Positions 4,699 through 20,446 of a DNA stretch of 20,487 nucleotides are shown piece by piece. A program made the position numbers and the translations under genes. Position 1 is the stretch's first letter, and every line of letters begins with the position of its first letter. Source of the DNA: a virus; the IMG/VR virus record IMGVR_UViG_3300020419_000101, positions 1 through 20,487 of that record; one strand, written 5' to 3'. The notes under the pieces were generated by a model that had not been told where the DNA came from, did no database searches, and worked only from the letters and a program-made list of their open reading frames with translations.

Positions 4699-5412
4699 AT
4701 GGCATTACCGAAACTTGGTTATCCCACCTATGAGTTAGAATTACCTTCTACAGGCAAATCCGTCAAATATCGACCATTTTTAGTAAAAGAGGAAAAAGTA
4801 CTTTTACTAGCATTAGAGTCAGAAGACGATAAACAGATTACTGCTGCTGTTAAGGATTTAATCAAAAATTGCGTTATTTCGAGAATTAAGGTAGAAACAT
4901 TACCTTTGTTTGATTTGGAATATCTGTTTTTAAAGATTAGAGGTGCTTCTATTGGAGAAACCATCACTATAAATGTGACTTGTCTTGATGACAATGAAAC
5001 AAAAGCAGAGACAACTATTAATATTGACGATATTGAAGTTTTTAAACCAGAAGGTCATACTAACAAAATTGAGTTAACTGATGAAATGGGTATTGTGATG
5101 AAATATCCAAGTATGAAGAGATTCATTGAATTGGACTTTTTACAGAAAGAATTGGATGCAGAAGAAGTTTTTGAATTAATCTCTGAAAGCATAGATCAGA
5201 TATATGACTCTGAAGATGTATATGACTCAACTACCACTACAAAGAAGGAATTCCGCACATTTGTTGAAGGATTGACTACTAGGCAGTTTGAGAAAATTCA
5301 ACAATTCTATGAAACATCTCCAAAACTACGTCATAAGTTTACAGTGGTAAACCCCAATACTGGTGTAGATTCTGAATATACATTGGAGGGACTACAGAGT
5401 TTTTTCGTGTAG
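4699..5412 (+). CDS. 26: gp26-like baseplate hub/assembly protein (probable tail assembly chaperone)
   Basis: T4 gp26 is needed to build the baseplate hub. The 237-residue product has the family pattern: a short N-terminal strand region (LPKLGYPTYELELPSTGKSV), then KYRPFLVKEEKVLLLALES (about residues 23-41), a helical middle including LIKNCVISRI and LFDLEYLFLKIRGASIGE (about 69-87), an acidic beta part with DDIEVF, and the C-terminal helices FVEGLTTRQFEKIQQFYE. The gene ends in AGT TTT TTC GTG TAG, whose T TTT TTC (5400-5406) is an in-frame slippery site followed by a hairpin. The downstream frame is therefore probably reached by -1 frameshifting (see 5406-5591). Position directly before the tape-measure gene suggests a chaperone role; that part is inference. 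Confidence 0.85.
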   Translation: MALPKLGYPTYELELPSTGKSVKYRPFLVKEEKVLLLALESEDDKQITAAVKDLIKNCVISRIKVETLPLFDLEYLFLKIRGASIGETITINVTCLDDNETKAETTINIDDIEVFKPEGHTNKIELTDEMGIVMKYPSMKRFIELDFLQKELDAEEVFELISESIDQIYDSEDVYDSTTTTKKEFRTFVEGLTTRQFEKIQQFYETSPKLRHKFTVVNPNTGVDSEYTLEGLQSFFV

Positions 5413-5445
5413 CACTCTTCCACAATAATCTGGAAGGGTACTATA
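5400..5445 (+). promoter_or_regulatory. programmed -1 ribosomal frameshift signal
   Basis: The slippery heptamer T TTT TTC (5400-5406) is in the gp26 frame. After a 7-nt spacer comes a hairpin: ACTCTTCCA (5414-5422) pairs with TGGAAGGGT (5431-5439), 9 bp with one T-G pair and an 8-nt loop. Past a C/A mismatch the stem can extend by GTGTA-type pairing (5408-5412 with 5441-5445). The gp26 stop lies six bases beyond the slip. The -1 frame is open from 5376 to 5591. The stem also hides the only ribosome-binding-like sequence before ATG 5448. Confidence 0.8.
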
Positions 5446-5591
5446 GAATGAATTTTGCTCTCATGCAGTACCATAAATACAGCTTGACAGAAGTAGAAAA
5501 TTGGATGCCTTGGGAACGTGAGGTTTATGTAGCGTTTTTAATGCAATATCTAGAAGAAGTAAAACAAAAGCAAGCACAACAGAATGGCTAG
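5406..5591 (+). CDS. -1 frame extension of gp26 (gp51-region / T-like segment)
   Basis: This frame is read after a -1 slip at 5406. It adds 61 residues beginning RVALFHNNLEGYYRMNFALM and ending in KQAQQNG, giving a gp26 fusion of about 297 residues. The segment is helical, with YHKYSLTEVENWMPWEREVY followed by a Leu/Glu/Gln-rich helix. An internal ATG at 5448 with GGAAGGG 9 nt upstream could instead start a separate 47-residue protein; that is the alternative reading, and cyanophage annotations place a gp51-like gene here. The upstream 14 codons read as plausible protein (FHNNLEGYYR), which favours fusion. The stop overlaps the next gene (ATG 5584) by 8 bp. This matches the G/G-T layout before the tape-measure gene in many tailed phages. 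Confidence 0.75.
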   Translation, partial: RVALFHNNLEGYYRMNFALMQYHKYSLTEVENWMPWEREVYVAFLMQYLEEVKQKQAQQNG

Positions 5592-8500
5592 GTACTCTAC
5601 AACATATAGTGGTGATACTGCCTCTTTTATTGGGGGTAAGATTTCTAGTGCTGTCAGCATGGCTAGAGCAGAATCAGACGCACAAGAGAAGGATAAACAA
5701 GCTGGTCTGAGTGTTGCGAATAGTGGTAATTTATTTGTTAAAGCATTAGGGACTGAATTTGGTGGAGATTTATTTTCAAGAACAATAGGTGTTCTTAATC
5801 CAAATCAATCTGCTAAACAAACTGATAGGGCATCTACTAAAGCAAAAAGATTTGCTGCAAATTTTCCTAGAACAGAGAAGCAGGAAGAAGAAGAAAAAAA
5901 GTCTAATGAAGACGTTGACCGTGCGGTTGACGATCTTCTAAAAGATGATGATCATACACCAGTAAAAGATGAGCAACTAAGAGAATATGTTACTCGTGTT
6001 TTTGGTGTTGGTATAGATTCTAAATTAACTCAATTAGATCAAAGAATATCCAAAAGTCTATCTACTTTATCTAATATAAAAACAACTCAACAAGGTAGTG
6101 TTGACTTGCAAGTTGATCATAATGAGTTGGTTGCAGGTAAATTAGATAAGATTTTAACATTATATAATGAGCAATTTGCCTATCAGAACATTCTTAAAGA
6201 TAGAGCTCAGGTAGCTGGTAAAGAGAATGAATTAGAGAGAGTAAGAGATCTCTCAAGTACCAGAAGGTTTATGGCGACCAATCTTGGTGATACTGGTAGA
6301 GCGATACTTGGAGGTTTAAGTGATAAACTAGTCAAGGGTGCTAGTAGAGTTATATTAGAGAAGTTAGGTTTTAAGAAACTTACACAAGGAGTAGCGAAAA
6401 AAAGTTTAACAGAGTCTGTTATAAGAAGAAGTCTTACTAAGATAGGTTTTAGAAGTAGTAGAGTAAGCAAACTTGTAAAGACAATTACACAGACTCCTGC
6501 GTTTAGAAATATTCTCCTTAAAAAAGGACCAGTTGCAGCTGCTGAATTTGTTGCACAAACAGCTAGTTCTCCTGTAGGTTTGAATATTATCGAAAAAGGT
6601 CGAGGTAGAAGTTATATGAAAAAGGTTATGGGAGTGGATAACCCAAATAACCTAAAGAGTGTTACAAAGATTATGCAGGATTTGGGTAAAAGTACAATTT
6701 TTGGTGGTTCTCAAGAAGCAGTGACGAAAGCAACACAAGCTGCTGATAGTGATATGTTGGATAATGTTGTTAAAAATTTGGTTAATGATCCTGATTCTAT
6801 TACAAAACCCACAATAGAGACTGTTGCAGAAGGTGGACGTAGAAAAATTACTAAAAAAACTGCTCAACAACTATCTTTAGACATAGGTAAGAAAAAAGTT
6901 GGTCAACAGTTAAGTTTAGACATGGCAGGTGCAGGAGTTAAAGCTGCAAATAAGACTACACAGAAAGCAGCAGGTAAAGCAGCTAAAAAATCTGGAGGAA
7001 AGTTATTTAAATTTATACCAGGTTTGGGTACAGCAATAGCATTAGGTGAAGCAGCATATAGAGCATCACAGGGTGATGGAACTGGTGCTTTCTTGTCACT
7101 TCTTAGTGCAATACCTATACTAGGATGGGGTGTGACTGCTGTTGATATTGGTAGAGATGTTGGTTTCAATCCACTAGGGTTGCCACCTCCACCAGGAGAG
7201 GGTGGATTTGAACAAGGTAACAGATACGGTTTGACAAATAGAGGAGTCAGTATGTTACATGGTACAGAGTACATTCAGTCGATGGATCGCACGAGTGGTA
7301 TGCCATCAAGTCACATTCAACATATTGGTGATATGTTAGTATCTACTAGTATGAAGATGGCACAGGATCTCGGTGTTTCTAAAAGTATTAGTAGTAAGAT
7401 TAGTACATTGCCATTTGCCATTAAAAGTATATCTTACAATACTGGTGTTAGAACTGCTCCACCTAAATCAATTAGTTCTAATACTTTTACACAACAGAGT
7501 GCAGGAAATCTTAGTGATTGGGCTAAGAGTAAAGCAGCAGAATCTGATATGGTAGAAAAAGCAGAAAAAGATGCCACAGAAAAAGAGGGTGGTACAGGTG
7601 GTTTTAATCCAGTAGACATGTTTTTTGATACTGTTAGATTTGGTAGGCACATGATTACTGGTGGTAAAAAAGCCATTCGATTTCATGGTGAACAAGGTCC
7701 AGATATGTCAAATGAACCTGGACTTGATTTTAGTTATGACGATTTTAAAAGCAACTATGCATTGTTTAACGGAGAAGTTATGGAAACAGGATTATTATAT
7801 GGTGAAGGATATGGCAATGTTGTAGTTGTTAGAAGTATAGATCCTAGTAATGGACAACCATTTGATGCATTATATGCACACTTCCCTGATGGTGGAATTG
7901 CTGTCAAGAAAGGTCAAAAGATTCGAGGTGGTCAATATCTTGGTAAGGTTGGATTTGTGAGTACAGCTGTACCTAATAAAGCAGAACTACAACCAAATAA
8001 CGCAGGTAATATGTCAGGATGGCATACTAGTGTTGATTTCTATGAACCTGATTCAACAACTGCATATTCTAATAGTAGAAATCTCGTTGGTTTAATAATG
8101 GCTGCTAGAGGAGTATCTCCAAGTGGTAATAATATTCTAAGTAAACTGAACCCTGCTGCCCCTGCTCAGGATGATGGTTTTAGAAAGAAATATCTCAAAG
8201 AGATGGAAGGATTTAGAAATGATGTATATTTGGACACTAATTTAAAACCTACTGTTGGATATGGTCATTTAATTGATGCTGGTTCTCCAGCAGACATTCG
8301 TAATTTACAAGTTGGTGATAGGATTAGTGATGAAAGAGCTATGGAGTTGTTTGAAATGGACTTCGAGCATCATTTAGCTGCTGCAAAGAAACTTCCTGGT
8401 TGGAATAGTGCTACTGATAATCAGAAAACAGCACTGTTAGACCTAGTGTACAACATGGGTCCAAATTTCTTAAATAATTTTCCATCGATGCGTAAAGCAT

Positions 8501-8922
8501 TAGAAAAAGGTGACTTTATGGAAGCAGCAAGACAATTAGAATTTGCTGATCCTGATAACAGACCTGGAGTAAAATCTCAATGGTTTAATGATGTAAAAGA
8601 AAGAAGAAATAAACCAACACTAGACTTATTACGTGACAAATCTCTTAATGAGAAGATGCATCCTCATTTGAAACATTTAATTCCCAAGAAAGTATCATCA
8701 AATGTTGCACCAGATATTCAATCAACAATAGCACTTAATCAAGTAGATAATTTCTTAGATGATAGTAAAATGTATAATGATCTTGAAGAGACATCTGGTT
8801 CAATGAAGGTAGTTGTGTTAAATAACAATATAATCAACAAAACTGTTGTTAAAAATTCTAATACGTTTAGGATGGCGAGTAATAACCTTGATTTGATTAA
8901 AACAGCAAAGTTAGTAGGATAG
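5584..8922 (+). CDS. tape-measure-like tail protein with degenerate M23 and GH24 lysozyme domains
   Basis: This 1112-residue protein lies directly after the frameshift pair, where a tape-measure (gp29-like) gene is expected. Residues 1-40 start MARYSTTYSG and resemble the next protein. Residues 80-460 are mostly helical and Lys/Gln-rich. A Gly/Ala-rich hydrophobic stretch (about 472-525) could cross a membrane. An LHGTE motif (about 557) is typical of tape measures. Residues about 719-825 look like an M23 peptidase (GYGNVVVVR at 742-750, YAHF at 764-767) but lack the HxH motif: the place reads WHTSVDF. Residues about 862-1018 are a GH24 lysozyme with T4-lysozyme spacing of E875, D884 and T890. 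The lysozyme probably opens peptidoglycan during entry. An Asn-rich strand ends the protein. Confidence 0.85.
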   Translation: MARYSTTYSGDTASFIGGKISSAVSMARAESDAQEKDKQAGLSVANSGNLFVKALGTEFGGDLFSRTIGVLNPNQSAKQTDRASTKAKRFAANFPRTEKQEEEEKKSNEDVDRAVDDLLKDDDHTPVKDEQLREYVTRVFGVGIDSKLTQLDQRISKSLSTLSNIKTTQQGSVDLQVDHNELVAGKLDKILTLYNEQFAYQNILKDRAQVAGKENELERVRDLSSTRRFMATNLGDTGRAILGGLSDKLVKGASRVILEKLGFKKLTQGVAKKSLTESVIRRSLTKIGFRSSRVSKLVKTITQTPAFRNILLKKGPVAAAEFVAQTASSPVGLNIIEKGRGRSYMKKVMGVDNPNNLKSVTKIMQDLGKSTIFGGSQEAVTKATQAADSDMLDNVVKNLVNDPDSITKPTIETVAEGGRRKITKKTAQQLSLDIGKKKVGQQLSLDMAGAGVKAANKTTQKAAGKAAKKSGGKLFKFIPGLGTAIALGEAAYRASQGDGTGAFLSLLSAIPILGWGVTAVDIGRDVGFNPLGLPPPPGEGGFEQGNRYGLTNRGVSMLHGTEYIQSMDRTSGMPSSHIQHIGDMLVSTSMKMAQDLGVSKSISSKISTLPFAIKSISYNTGVRTAPPKSISSNTFTQQSAGNLSDWAKSKAAESDMVEKAEKDATEKEGGTGGFNPVDMFFDTVRFGRHMITGGKKAIRFHGEQGPDMSNEPGLDFSYDDFKSNYALFNGEVMETGLLYGEGYGNVVVVRSIDPSNGQPFDALYAHFPDGGIAVKKGQKIRGGQYLGKVGFVSTAVPNKAELQPNNAGNMSGWHTSVDFYEPDSTTAYSNSRNLVGLIMAARGVSPSGNNILSKLNPAAPAQDDGFRKKYLKEMEGFRNDVYLDTNLKPTVGYGHLIDAGSPADIRNLQVGDRISDERAMELFEMDFEHHLAAAKKLPGWNSATDNQKTALLDLVYNMGPNFLNNFPSMRKALEKGDFMEAARQLEFADPDNRPGVKSQWFNDVKERRNKPTLDLLRDKSLNEKMHPHLKHLIPKKVSSNVAPDIQSTIALNQVDNFLDDSKMYNDLEETSGSMKVVVLNNNIINKTVVKNSNTFRMASNNLDLIKTAKLVG

Positions 8923-8923
8923 G

Positions 8924-11317
8924 ATGGCCAGATACAGTTCTACATTTACAGCAGGAGCAGAGGGCAAAATTATTGGTGCTCTACTTGATGCTGCCAGTAT
9001 GGGTAAGACTGAGAAAGCTCGTGCCATGCAAGGTGCAGAGATTAATCAGCTTGACAAAGATAATTTGGGACTACGTAAAGGAGAATTTTTTGGTCAAGCA
9101 TTAAAATATATGATGACTCCTAAAATGTTTAGGAGAGGTAGTTTTCAAGATCAGTTTAGTTATCCTGATTATTTTGCTAGAGGGCAGAGTACACCATTTG
9201 CTAGTCCAGTAGGACCATTTAAAGCAAACAATGCTCAGATTCAGGAAAGGTTGATTGGGAATCCATTCCCCCACATTGCGACTCCACATAGAGAGCATCA
9301 TATACAACCACAGACTCCACTACTATCATCAGGTACTAAGAGCTATGAACCTACTGGTAGTAAGAACAAAGCACCAGTTAAAGTTAAGGATGAGAAACTA
9401 GGTGTATTCTTTGCTGCTATTGCAGAATCATTAAACAGAACTGTTTCTTCTATCAATCAAAAACAGTCTAATTTAGAGACTGAAATTAGTGCTGCAAAAG
9501 AGTCTAATCTTGCTCTTGCTAAGGGACTTGAATTTAGTAGTGATAGTATAGGTGACAAGTTAGATGCTATCGCTGATATATTGAATCAGCAAATGGCACT
9601 TGCTAAACAACAAGTTGATCAAGCAGAAACCACTGCTGTTAAGAGAACATTAAAAAAAGAGGATGATTTATCTGGTACAGAAAGATTTACTGACATTGGT
9701 GAGGATCCAGAAAAGATAAGGAAAGATAATGAATTTGAGAATAATCTTGATGTAGATAACGATGAGTTAGGTGATTTTGGTGGAGTTGATGTTCCTAACT
9801 TTGAACAGGGTGGTATAGTCTCTGGTCCTGATAGTGGATACCTAGTCAGGTTACATGGTGATGAGATGATCACACCATTAGATAACAATTATACACAGGG
9901 ACAACCAAGTGCTGTTGATGGTGTAACTCGTAAGGCACAGTATGAATCAGGAACATCTTCAATAACACCATCTGCTCCTCTACAGATGCCATCGATGAAC
10001 TTCTTTGCTAAGAATCCATCTGAGAGATCTGGTAATGTTATGAAGTCTCCAGTGAAATCTCTTAAGAGAGATAAGTTCACTGAAGAAAAACTTCTTGATG
10101 CTATGAAGTTGCCACTCCAAGTTGCTGGATTGGGAATTATGGCTTCTACTGGTAATGCTGTCAGAGGAATGCCAGGATTTACTGGATTAAAAACATCAGT
10201 AAAAGAAATAACCGATCCTGTTGCTGCTTCATTTAATGAACCTTCAAGTATCTCTCGTAGGGTTAATAATCTATTAGAGACTAAGACAGTACAAACTGAA
10301 CGAAGAAATCAAGAGACATTTAAGAAAGAGCAATCTGAAAATAGACGTTCATGGTGGGACATATTTGGACTGTTCAAAGGCAATAATGGTACAGGTGGTG
10401 GTTATGGTGGACAAGTTATTGGTGGTTATGGTGTTGGAGGTCCAGGTTTAAGTGGTGCAGGTAGTTTACAGAACTTATATCACGGAACCAGTAATGCTAG
10501 AGCAGGTAGTATATTCTCAGGTGGATTCAAACCTAGCAATGCTATGAGTTGGGCTGGTAAAGGTAAATCATTCCTAACACCAGATTTCTTTGATGCTGCT
10601 AAGTATGCTAGACCTGGTGCTACTGGATTGAATCCTTTCAGTGTTAAAGGTCTTCCAGGAACTGGTCTCAACAATATGATGAATAGCAGAGGTCAGGTAT
10701 TAAATATACTACAACCTAAAAATTCTGGTATAAGATTGCCTAATTGGTTGAGAAAATTAGGTTTGTCACCAGAGGTTGCTGTTAAACCTAATAAAGCAAC
10801 TAAGGGATTGAATTTAGCTCAGAGATTATTGGGTGGCAAATATCCTAATAGTACAGCTGCTAACATGGCTAGGCAGATGATGACATCACCAGCAACAAGT
10901 AAAGGTATGGGTTTGATGAGTAAGTTGTCACCATTACTCAAAGGTACTGCTAAAGTTGGATCAAAAGCACTTGGCATTGCAAGTTTCCTCACTGATTTTA
11001 TATTCCCAGATCCAACTGCTCAATATGATCAGATGCATGGTCCAAATGCATACTATAATGATCCTAGATACACTGGTCCTAAACCAGATTTGACTCCTCC
11101 AGAAAGTTCTCGTGAAAGATCTGCTTTTGTTGATATGTCTTCTAAAGAGCAGTCTTTAAAGAGGTTAACTAAAAACCAGTTGAATCCAGAAATCATTAAT
11201 ATGAATAATAATACTAATAATGAGAATGTGACTGAGGGAGAAGGAATCTCTCATATTGATAATGTAGCAGAAACTCAGGTCGGTGACTATCAATTTGTAT
11301 ACTCCCCATATAGATAA
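8924..11317 (+). CDS. second tape-measure-like tail protein with ADP-ribosyltransferase-like segment
   Basis: The 797-residue product starts MARYSSTFTAG and shares its N-terminal layout, the V-K-D-E-(Q/K)-L helix region and the LHG(T/D)E motif with the preceding protein, so the two are probably ancient duplicates. Around residues 293-320 it has the tape-measure signature GGIVSGPDSGYLVRLHGDE. Residues 517-562 read LYHGTSNARAGSIFSGGF, then S, GKG, SFLTPDFFDAAKYA, the order of motifs seen in PARP/KptA-like ADP-ribosyltransferases (H520 of YHGT, Y561 near AKYA). The third catalytic Glu is not obvious. The C-terminus has an Asn-rich strand. It may travel in the tube and enter the cell. Tail function is likely; enzyme activity is a hypothesis. 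Confidence 0.8.
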   Translation: MARYSSTFTAGAEGKIIGALLDAASMGKTEKARAMQGAEINQLDKDNLGLRKGEFFGQALKYMMTPKMFRRGSFQDQFSYPDYFARGQSTPFASPVGPFKANNAQIQERLIGNPFPHIATPHREHHIQPQTPLLSSGTKSYEPTGSKNKAPVKVKDEKLGVFFAAIAESLNRTVSSINQKQSNLETEISAAKESNLALAKGLEFSSDSIGDKLDAIADILNQQMALAKQQVDQAETTAVKRTLKKEDDLSGTERFTDIGEDPEKIRKDNEFENNLDVDNDELGDFGGVDVPNFEQGGIVSGPDSGYLVRLHGDEMITPLDNNYTQGQPSAVDGVTRKAQYESGTSSITPSAPLQMPSMNFFAKNPSERSGNVMKSPVKSLKRDKFTEEKLLDAMKLPLQVAGLGIMASTGNAVRGMPGFTGLKTSVKEITDPVAASFNEPSSISRRVNNLLETKTVQTERRNQETFKKEQSENRRSWWDIFGLFKGNNGTGGGYGGQVIGGYGVGGPGLSGAGSLQNLYHGTSNARAGSIFSGGFKPSNAMSWAGKGKSFLTPDFFDAAKYARPGATGLNPFSVKGLPGTGLNNMMNSRGQVLNILQPKNSGIRLPNWLRKLGLSPEVAVKPNKATKGLNLAQRLLGGKYPNSTAANMARQMMTSPATSKGMGLMSKLSPLLKGTAKVGSKALGIASFLTDFIFPDPTAQYDQMHGPNAYYNDPRYTGPKPDLTPPESSRERSAFVDMSSKEQSLKRLTKNQLNPEIINMNNNTNNENVTEGEGISHIDNVAETQVGDYQFVYSPYR

Positions 11318-17148: not shown

Positions 17149-17523
17149 ATGTCTATTAAATCAACAATTGCTGCTCTAGCAGCATCTCCATTCCTCTTCG
17201 CTGGTGCAGCTTTTGCTGGTCCATACGTGAATGTAGAAGCAAACGGTTCATATCCTGATGGTGAGTACACAAGTGGAAACCTAGAATTCCAAGTAGGTTA
17301 CGAAGGCGTAACACCTTCTGGACTTGGATGGTACGTATCTGGTGGTCCTACAGTTTCTCACACTGAATCTACAGACGACTTCGGTGATGTTGAACTTGCT
17401 GGATACCTTGGTGCATCTAAGGCACTTAACGAAGATCTTTCTCTTTATGGAGAGATCTATGGTCAGACTGCTGATGACGATCTTGACTTCTCAGGTAAGA
17501 TTGGAACTAAGTTCACTTTCTAA
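17149..17523 (+). CDS. secreted beta-rich protein, probably outer-membrane
   Basis: The 124-residue product has a clear Sec signal peptide: MSIKSTIAALAASPFLFAGA then AFA, with a predicted cut after A23 (AFA|G). The mature 101 residues are made of alternating polar/hydrophobic strands joined by Gly/Asp turns (VNVEANGSYPDG, GNLEFQVGYEGV, GLGWYVSGGPTVS, VELAGYLGASKAL, DLSLYGEIYGQT, FSGKIGTKFTF). It ends in a terminal Phe, typical of outer-membrane beta-barrels. It is too short for a classical 8-strand barrel, so a small barrel, an oligomer or a periplasmic beta protein are all possible. A phage-made envelope protein could alter receptor access or the envelope before lysis; that is speculation. 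It has its own promoter, structured leader and strong terminator. Confidence 0.75.
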   Translation: MSIKSTIAALAASPFLFAGAAFAGPYVNVEANGSYPDGEYTSGNLEFQVGYEGVTPSGLGWYVSGGPTVSHTESTDDFGDVELAGYLGASKALNEDLSLYGEIYGQTADDDLDFSGKIGTKFTF

Positions 17524-18346: not shown

Positions 18347-18746
18347 ATGCCTCATAGGAAAATTTGATAATCAGCAACAATCGTTGCAATATCCGAGCAG
18401 GTTTGCTAGAATTCTTATATGTCACGAGGATCTTGGAAATGGTTGGATCAAAGGATTTCAAGCATATCACCACAACCCCAAACCCTACAGGGAATTTCGA
18501 ATGTGGGTCACTTCAATCGGGGAAAAATTTCTTGTGCAAAATTTTGATTCGGAGGGTTTGACATATAAGGAAGGATATGATACAATATTCGAGTGGAGAG
18601 ATGACCATTGGCACGGTCAATCCCACGATACCGACTACTTCACTGTTGATGCTATTTTAGGCAAAGACAAGTATTATGTACTAGATAAAGGTGATACATG
18701 GGGATCTCAATGGGGACACTTTAAATTTCATAAATTGCCAGCATAG
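18330..18746 (+). CDS. CpeT/CpcT-family protein (second copy), stop codon inside tRNA-Thr
   Basis: The 138-residue product begins at ATG 18330 (MIPFREC...); an upstream TTG at 18315 is the only longer option. It has the clearest CpeT hallmark of the window, CLIGKFDNQQQSLQYPSRFA followed by RI, the counterpart of the family's G-x-F-x-NQQQA-x-x-xP-x-x-FAHI. Then come GFQAYHHNPKPYREFRMWV (QAY...PYR), FLVQNFD and a closing GDTWGSQWGHFKF. Function should be binding or attaching a bilin to a phycobiliprotein, or a derived role. It overlaps the upstream gene by 17 bp. Its TAG stop is formed by bases 8-10 of the tRNA-Thr gene, so the mRNA and tRNA cannot both be kept whole from one transcript. Confidence 0.75.
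   Translation: MIPFRECLIGKFDNQQQSLQYPSRFARILICHEDLGNGWIKGFQAYHHNPKPYREFRMWVTSIGEKFLVQNFDSEGLTYKEGYDTIFEWRDDHWHGQSHDTDYFTVDAILGKDKYYVLDKGDTWGSQWGHFKFHKLPA
18558..18586 (+). promoter_or_regulatory. sigma-70-type promoter for tRNA-Thr and tmRNA, inside a gene
   Basis: TTGACA (18558-18563), a 17-bp spacer and TACAAT (18581-18586) form a near-consensus promoter inside the second CpeT-like gene. A start near 18593 would produce an RNA that leads into tRNA-Thr (18737) and the permuted tmRNA. Confidence 0.6.
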
Positions 18747-18808
18747 CTCAGTGGTAGAGCAGTGCTTTTGTAAAGCGAAGGTCGTTGGTTCAAATCCGAC
18801 TGTTGGCT
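18737..18808 (+). tRNA. tRNA-Thr (UGU)
   Basis: A 72-nt cloverleaf: acceptor GCCAGCA with TGTTGGC, D-arm GCTC/GAGC, anticodon loop TTTGTAA (anticodon TGT, codon ACA), T-arm GTTGG TTCAAAT CCGAC, discriminator T. The anticodon stem has a G-A mismatch at its outer pair. CCA is not encoded. The first ten bases are the end of the upstream coding sequence. The tmRNA acceptor segment starts right after it. Confidence 0.95.
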
Positions 18809-19078
18809 TCCTCATTTGAGGATAGGTGACGACACCTACATTCTGGACAGGGGTTCGATTCCCCTCATCTCCATCATGGGGATGCACTGGATTCGACAGG
18901 GTACAAGGATCGGGACTGAAACCTGCTTGGATAAGCAAACAACATCTGCAAAAACAGATACACCTGCTGCGAATAACATCGTAGCATTCTCTCGCACTCG
19001 TGAACTAGCGACTGTCTAGAGAGATCGGGGTCAGGTTAGCCTTGTTACCCAAATAACCTACTGGGGGTGAGATACCCC
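18809..19078 (+). ncRNA. ssrA: circularly permuted (two-piece) tmRNA gene
   Basis: tmRNA rescues stalled ribosomes and tags the unfinished protein. Here the 3' half comes first: acceptor segment 18809-18873 with TAGGTG/CACCTA hairpin, the conserved CTGGAC, T-arm AGGGG TTCGATT CCCCT (18849-18865) and acceptor strand CATCTCC plus A (18866-18873). Four bases (TCAT) later the 5' half begins, GGGGATG (18878-18884) and the conserved GGATTCGAC. The two strands form a perfect 7-bp acceptor stem with G3-U70, the alanine identity pair, and discriminator A73. The tag frame is 18969-19019. After it a TCTCTC/GAGAGA stem and an H-type pseudoknot, AGGTTA/TAACCT (19033-19059) with TTACCC/GGGTGA (19045-19070). 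A permuted order is the form used by marine picocyanobacteria. The outer ends are estimated. Confidence 0.93.
18969..19019 (+). other. tmRNA tag-peptide reading frame
   Basis: From the resume codon GCG the frame reads ANNIVAFSRTRELATV and stops at TAG (19017-19019). The beginning, ANNIV-x-FSR, is the picocyanobacterial tag type. Host tags, as I recall them, end in APVAA; this one ends in ELATV, so the usual C-terminal Ala-Ala is missing. Confidence 0.9.
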
Positions 19079-20292: not shown

Positions 20293-20364
20293 GGGACTAT
20301 CGCATATTGGTTAATGCCCACTGCTTATAACGGTGTGAACCGAGTTCAATTCTCGGTAGTCCTA
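20293..20364 (+). tRNA. tRNA-Ile (UAU)
   Basis: A 72-nt cloverleaf: acceptor GGGACTA with TAGTCCT (one G-T end pair), D-arm GCAT/ATGC, anticodon stem CACTG/CGGTG with loop CTTATAA (anticodon TAT, codon ATA), T-arm CCGAG TTCAATT CTCGG, discriminator A. It reads the ATA codon directly; most bacteria use a lysidine-modified CAU tRNA for this. CCA is not encoded. Confidence 0.92.
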
Positions 20365-20368
20365 TATT

Positions 20369-20443
20369 GACTCAATAGCTCAGTTGGAGTAGAGCAACTG
20401 CCTTCTAAGCAGTCGGTCGTAGGTTCGAGTCCTACTTGAGTCG
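20369..20443 (+). tRNA. tRNA-Arg (UCU)
   Basis: A 75-nt cloverleaf: acceptor GACTCAA with TTGAGTC, D-arm GCTC/GAGC, anticodon stem ACTGC/GCAGT with loop CTTCTAA (anticodon TCT, codon AGA), T-arm GTAGG TTCGAGT CCTAC, discriminator G. All stems pair fully. It lies 4 bp after tRNA-Ile. Confidence 0.97.
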
Positions 20444-20446
20444 TTC

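Follow-up and report, generated by a model that had tools for sequence, protein, structure and literature searches.

The window, meaning the whole stretch of DNA analysed here, is a T4-like sequence of 20,487 bases from an IMG/VR virus record, and its nearest relatives are marine cyanophages. The features of the locus under study lie on the + strand. gp26 (4699..5412) encodes a protein of 237 residues, and its open reading frame ends in AGT TTT TTC GTG TAG. This end contains, in the gp26 frame, the slippery heptamer T TTT TTC (5400..5406), followed one codon later by the zero-frame stop codon TAG (5410..5412). The −1 frame is open from 5376 to 5591. A ribosome entering it at the heptamer would read FF, then RVALFHNNLEGYYRMNF and onward; the reading beyond the slip is RVALFHNNLEGYYRMNFALMQYHKYSLTEVENWMPWEREVYVAFLMQYLEEVKQKQAQQNG. 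This extension (5406..5591; TAC-C, or 'gp51' of cyanophages) comprises 61 codons plus a stop, and its fusion in silico to gp26 is 297 residues long. An earlier note on this DNA had pointed to a T TTT TTC in the gp26 frame, an open −1 frame with the same two limits, and a 61-codon extension giving a fusion of about 297 residues. Its observation at the 3' end of gp26 is correct to the base.

A tail tube gene is found upstream of the locus. Downstream, the next gene (5584..8922) encodes 1112 residues and is a putative tape measure or tail protein gene by position only. Its product matches phrog_5453, of unknown function, at the N-terminus and carries M23 and lysozyme domains at the C-terminus; family searches and a comparison with T4 gp29 gave no tape measure match for it. 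It adjoins a second large gene (8924-11317). The two products begin alike, with MARYS(T/S)T, and are apparently distant paralogues (BLASTP 6e-5); either one may be the tape measure. Elsewhere in the window, a full-length permuted (two-piece type) cyanobacterial tmRNA gene occupies 18792-19078 on the + strand (Rfam RF01851, 135.8 bits, E 4e-38) and is adjoined by tRNA-Thr(TGT) at 18737-18808; two-piece tmRNAs have been reported in marine phages (PMC9004378). Two further tRNA genes, Ile(TAT) and Arg(TCT), lie at 20293-20444 (+), and a 124-residue open reading frame at 17149-17523 (+) resembles, by eye, a signal peptide followed by a small outer-membrane beta-barrel protein.

Conservation of the slip site and selection in the −1 frame

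gp26 loci were gathered from IMG/VR by the gp26 protein only, plus named phages. The sample is mostly unselected for the slip site, a few of the named phages having been picked through a match to the extension. T TTT TTN is present 0–6 nt from the gp26 stop in 226 of 230 distinct loci. A terminal Phe-Phe pair is encoded in 203 of the 230, as T TTT TTC in 180 and as T TTT TTT in 23; nearly all loci lacking this pair have T TTT TTA or T TTT TTG instead. The stop follows the heptamer after 0 nt in 36 loci, 3 nt in 164 and 6 nt in 3. As a control, T TTT TTY is found at only 3.8% of 549 Phe-Phe pairs elsewhere in the same loci. The base preceding TTT is T in 215 of 215 loci with a complete −1 open reading frame, where the residue may be S, D, N, A or G. 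The codon containing this base shows zero synonymous changes in 74 disjoint sequence pairs, compared with a synonymous rate of 0.51 in upstream gp26. TTTTTTC by itself is not rare (the window has 9, with 6.9 expected), and it is the conservation of the site that carries the case. Both the conservation of the heptamer and its synonymous constraint, which the earlier note had proposed to examine, are borne out. The −1 frame is open for 55–68 codons in all complete loci, and a matching arrangement is seen in Vibrio, Sinorhizobium, Pseudomonas, Aeromonas, Cronobacter and Stenotrophomonas phages. A search of Rfam returned no family covering the slip site.

A conserved T run could also be the place where RNA polymerase, instead of the ribosome, slips and joins the two frames. 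The run consists of six T, however, followed by C in 175 of 215 loci, and the A or T runs for which bacterial transcript slippage has been described are about nine bases long (PMC5009743). The heptamer fixed at its wobble position, together with the stem and the Shine-Dalgarno-like (SD-like) element described below, fits slippage by the ribosome, and we consider transcript slippage extremely improbable.

Of the four loci lacking T TTT TTN, one is an indel copy and the other three belong to Vibrio phage K393, Salmonella phage Mooltan and Aeromonas phage TSW001. In these three, gp26 ends in CTTTTC or ATTTTC, but the −1 frame is still open and encodes a domain with MPWHL. The standard heptamer does not account for the frame shift in these three phages. 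Two Stenotrophomonas phages (L115 and L114) have near-identical gp26 genes, and a T-run indel at the slip site of L115, which leads into the wrong frame, is probably a homopolymer sequencing error. The pair shows how a one-base error of sequencing or assembly could split a gene that is truly continuous. At the gp26 locus, though, over 200 independent contigs share the frame break, and so do finished genomes, S-PM2 and phiN3 among them. So many independent genomes already refute an error, the probability of which is negligible.

Is the extension translated as a continuation of gp26 or from a start of its own? An ATG at 5448 is present in the window with a purine-rich stretch before it, defining a possible small open reading frame of 47 residues (5448..5591), and a separate gp51 is annotated in many records. 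gp26 and the small frame could then be two genes, the second starting at this ATG or by reinitiation after the gp26 stop, and in the window itself some initiation of this kind may take place. Across the relatives, however, an ATG at this position is retained in 8 of 215 loci, and any ATG, GTG or TTG that is preceded by an SD-like tetramer occurs upstream of the core of the extension domain in only 27 of 215. The codons upstream of the ATG (5406-5447) have a pN/pS of 0.15 in the −1 frame; for the part of this segment that follows the gp26 stop, the ratio is 1.99 in the zero frame and 1.10 in the +1 frame. For comparison, pN/pS is 0.07 beyond 5447 in the −1 frame and 0.16 in gp26 itself. Purifying selection between 5406 and 5448, another check named in the earlier note, is therefore present and confined to the −1 frame. 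Because selection acts in this frame only and no start codon is conserved, we conclude that 5406-5447 is translated in the −1 frame. The family matches of the extension, given below, also take in codons before 5448, and a separate start leaves the fixed heptamer unexplained. Initiation of a second gene is thus highly unlikely. When tested, all three alternatives (a separate start at 5448, slippage during transcription, an error of assembly) proved weak.

Elements on either side of the heptamer

Downstream of the heptamer, at 5414..5439, the transcript can fold into a stem-loop. Its arms (5414-5422/5431-5439) form 9 bp, 8 Watson-Crick pairs and one G-U, beginning 7 nt past the heptamer, and a lower stem is formed by 5408-5412/5441-5445. 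The minimum free energy of RNA 5407-5453 is −16.2 kcal/mol, compared with −6.6 ± 2.3 for shuffled sequences (z −4.2). The 9-bp stem listed in the earlier note is real. After thinning at 85% identity to a set of 124 loci, the mean minimum free energy of the 47 nt that follow the heptamer is −10.1 kcal/mol, compared with −5.9 kcal/mol in synonymous-codon controls; in five flanking windows of the same set, folding differs from the controls by at most about 1 kcal/mol. In approximately 15% of loci, folding after the heptamer is no better than in their own controls.

Within the clade of the window (18 relatives), 93.8% of the pairs in the stem are retained, and a single pair has changed from C-G to G-C. 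As this is one two-sided pair change in 18 close relatives, the wider case for a conserved stem rests on the folding energy relative to synonymous controls. Other clades have different stems at about the same place, including GGTCC-ATAT-GGACC, GGTTC-ATAT-GAACC and GATCC-ATAT-GGATC, in which the changes in the two arms match. The distance from the heptamer to the longest helix is commonly 5–10 nt and varies across loci. Conservation of the stem, also raised by the earlier note, thus takes the form of folding in excess of the synonymous controls, and the stem-loop is probably a 3' stimulator of slippage.

A second element, absent from the earlier note, lies upstream. The SD-like hexamer GGAGGG (5385..5390) ends 9 nt before the heptamer. 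SD-like Glu-Gly codons are used here in 169 of 192 loci, compared with 212 of 602 Glu-Gly pairs elsewhere (odds ratio 13.5; Fisher p 4e-40, a value that ignores the relatedness of the loci). The pairing energy with the anti-SD sequence is −7.1 kcal/mol, compared with −5.6 kcal/mol in synonymous controls. GGAGGG is probably a 5' stimulator of slippage.

Relationship to T4 gp26 and gp51 and proposed mechanism

The gp26 protein matches PF12322 T4_baseplate (E 4.5e-71) and phrog_150, a baseplate hub family (E 1.6e-78). In a profile comparison by hhalign it matches T4 gp26 with an E value of 4e-15, and T4 gp26 ends at FFELL, the slip point. The extension matches phrog_634, the 'baseplate hub assembly catalyst' (gp51) family (E 7e-28), including residues encoded before ATG 5448, and aligns with the C-terminus of T4 gp51. 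The profile of the fusion aligns with T4 gp51 over columns 12-284 of 297, across the junction (hhalign probability 98.9, E 1.7e-17). Since the fusion matches T4 gp51 from end to end and T4 gp26 stops at the slip point, gp26 corresponds to the short tail assembly chaperone (TAC-N) and gp26-gp51 to the long one (TAC-NC), which supports the earlier suggestion that gp26 plays the chaperone part. It follows that T4 uses two genes, 26 for the short form and 51 for the long form. Sullivan et al. (2010; PMC3037559) observed that gp51 in cyanophages reaches just about 20% of the length of its T4 counterpart, a shortness that the frameshift would explain. One T4-type gp51 gene (L284:1201-1946) is not readable in one frame, possibly owing to an indel.

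The model of gp26 has a pLDDT of 88, and among 350,542 PDB chains the HK97 chaperone 2ob9 ranks 3-4, a match that is not significant (E ~1, probability 0.63-0.72). The model of the extension gave no fold match in the PDB, and sequence searches of the PDB with both profiles gave chance matches only.

Taken from its sequence features, the gp26 locus is very probably a tail-assembly-chaperone gene with a programmed −1 ribosomal frameshift. We propose that the majority of ribosomes read TTT TTC GTG TAG and release gp26 (TAC-N, 237 residues). For a fraction of them, the downstream stem-loop, together with base-pairing between 16S rRNA and the upstream GGAGGG, would hold the ribosome on T TTT TTC. 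The peptidyl- and aminoacyl-tRNA-Phe could then slip back by one base, from UUU UUC, and re-pair with UUU UUU, and the slipped ribosomes would read 61 further codons to give the 297-residue TAC-NC with a C-terminal helical domain. In lambda, the short form acts on the tape measure and the extension binds to the tail tube protein (PMC5009743). By analogy with lambda G/GT, the short gp26 form would coat the tape measure protein, with the long form, the rarer of the two, recruiting tail-tube subunits. A more specific proposal, which we hold with evenly divided confidence, is that the cyanophage signal is a full three-part dnaX-type cassette whose stem sequence has been replaced several times while a stem stayed near the same place, and that the slip rate is under selection, setting the TAC-N:TAC-NC ratio on cyanobacterial ribosomes.

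Large-scale sequence comparison indicates that the hub genes 'gp26' and 'gp51' in marine T4-like phages constitute one frameshifted chaperone gene. The deposited records examined annotate gp26 and gp51 as two genes or omit half, and in none of 18 annotated non-T4 records is gp26 joined to the −1 frame. To our knowledge, few −1 frameshift cases have been characterised in Synechococcus and Prochlorococcus, and the slip site could serve as a −1 frameshift reporter in both. T4 gp51 has long been classed as essential for assembly, with an unknown function (PMC3004832). Homology with the fusion gives it a testable role.

Comparison with known frameshift systems

Frameshifting is reportedly kept in several groups of T4-like phages, and T4 is said to use genes 26 and 51. 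The earlier note did not recall a frameshift as described for T4-like gp26, but one has been described: Vladimirov, Gautam and Davidson (2022; Virology 566:9-15), as cited in PMC10885494 and PMC12846349, identified gp26 and gp51 as T4-like TACs. From the same study, the PRFect paper (PMC10885494) relates that in some T4-like phages the short and long forms come instead from separate genes, and PMC12846349 refers to that study for T-rich −1 signals in the TAC-N genes of T4-like phages. In 2016, T4 was still excepted from the G-T frameshift (PMC5009743). The literature was also searched for frameshifting in ribosome profiles of cyanophages, without a relevant hit; neither proteomics nor ribosome profiling turned up for this phage group. 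The phenomenon is already known for T4-like phages, and the present locus is a further case, with the same genes, the same logic of short and long chaperones and a T-rich −1 signal (PMC12846349). Possible additions are the scale of the comparison, the constraint on synonymous change, the internal SD and the re-evolved stems, of which the internal SD and the covarying stem may be new relative to Vladimirov et al. (2022). T4 itself has a gene of its own for the long form, gene 51, which neighbours gene 26 and lies on the opposite strand, whereas here there is one probably frameshifted locus.

In Vandenendeviridae and Andersonviridae, as at the gp26 locus, TAC-N carries a conserved T-rich slip site at its 3' end, and the −1 frame runs uninterrupted through 'intergenic' sequence (PMC12846349). 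Their motif is GTTTTT, whereas that of the gp26 group is TTTTTT(C/T/A/G). E. coli dnaX shares the three parts of the signal, an upstream SD-like element, an X XXY YYZ heptamer and a downstream stem-loop (PMC6787027), but slips on AAA/AAG with tRNA-Lys, whereas the gp26 locus would slip on UUU/UUC with tRNA-Phe. Unlike in dnaX, the frameshift product of the gp26 locus would be the longer one. Lambda G/GT and P2 E/E+E' are likened to this locus by layout, with a −1 slip close to where the upstream gene ends and two proteins, one short and one long. Such genes usually stand just before the tape measure gene, and here the next gene is a putative one by position. The lambda heptamer is G GGA AAG, and the heptamers of lambda and P2 differ from T TTT TTC here; also unlike lambda and P2, the gp26 group has its zero-frame stop 0–6 nt past the heptamer.
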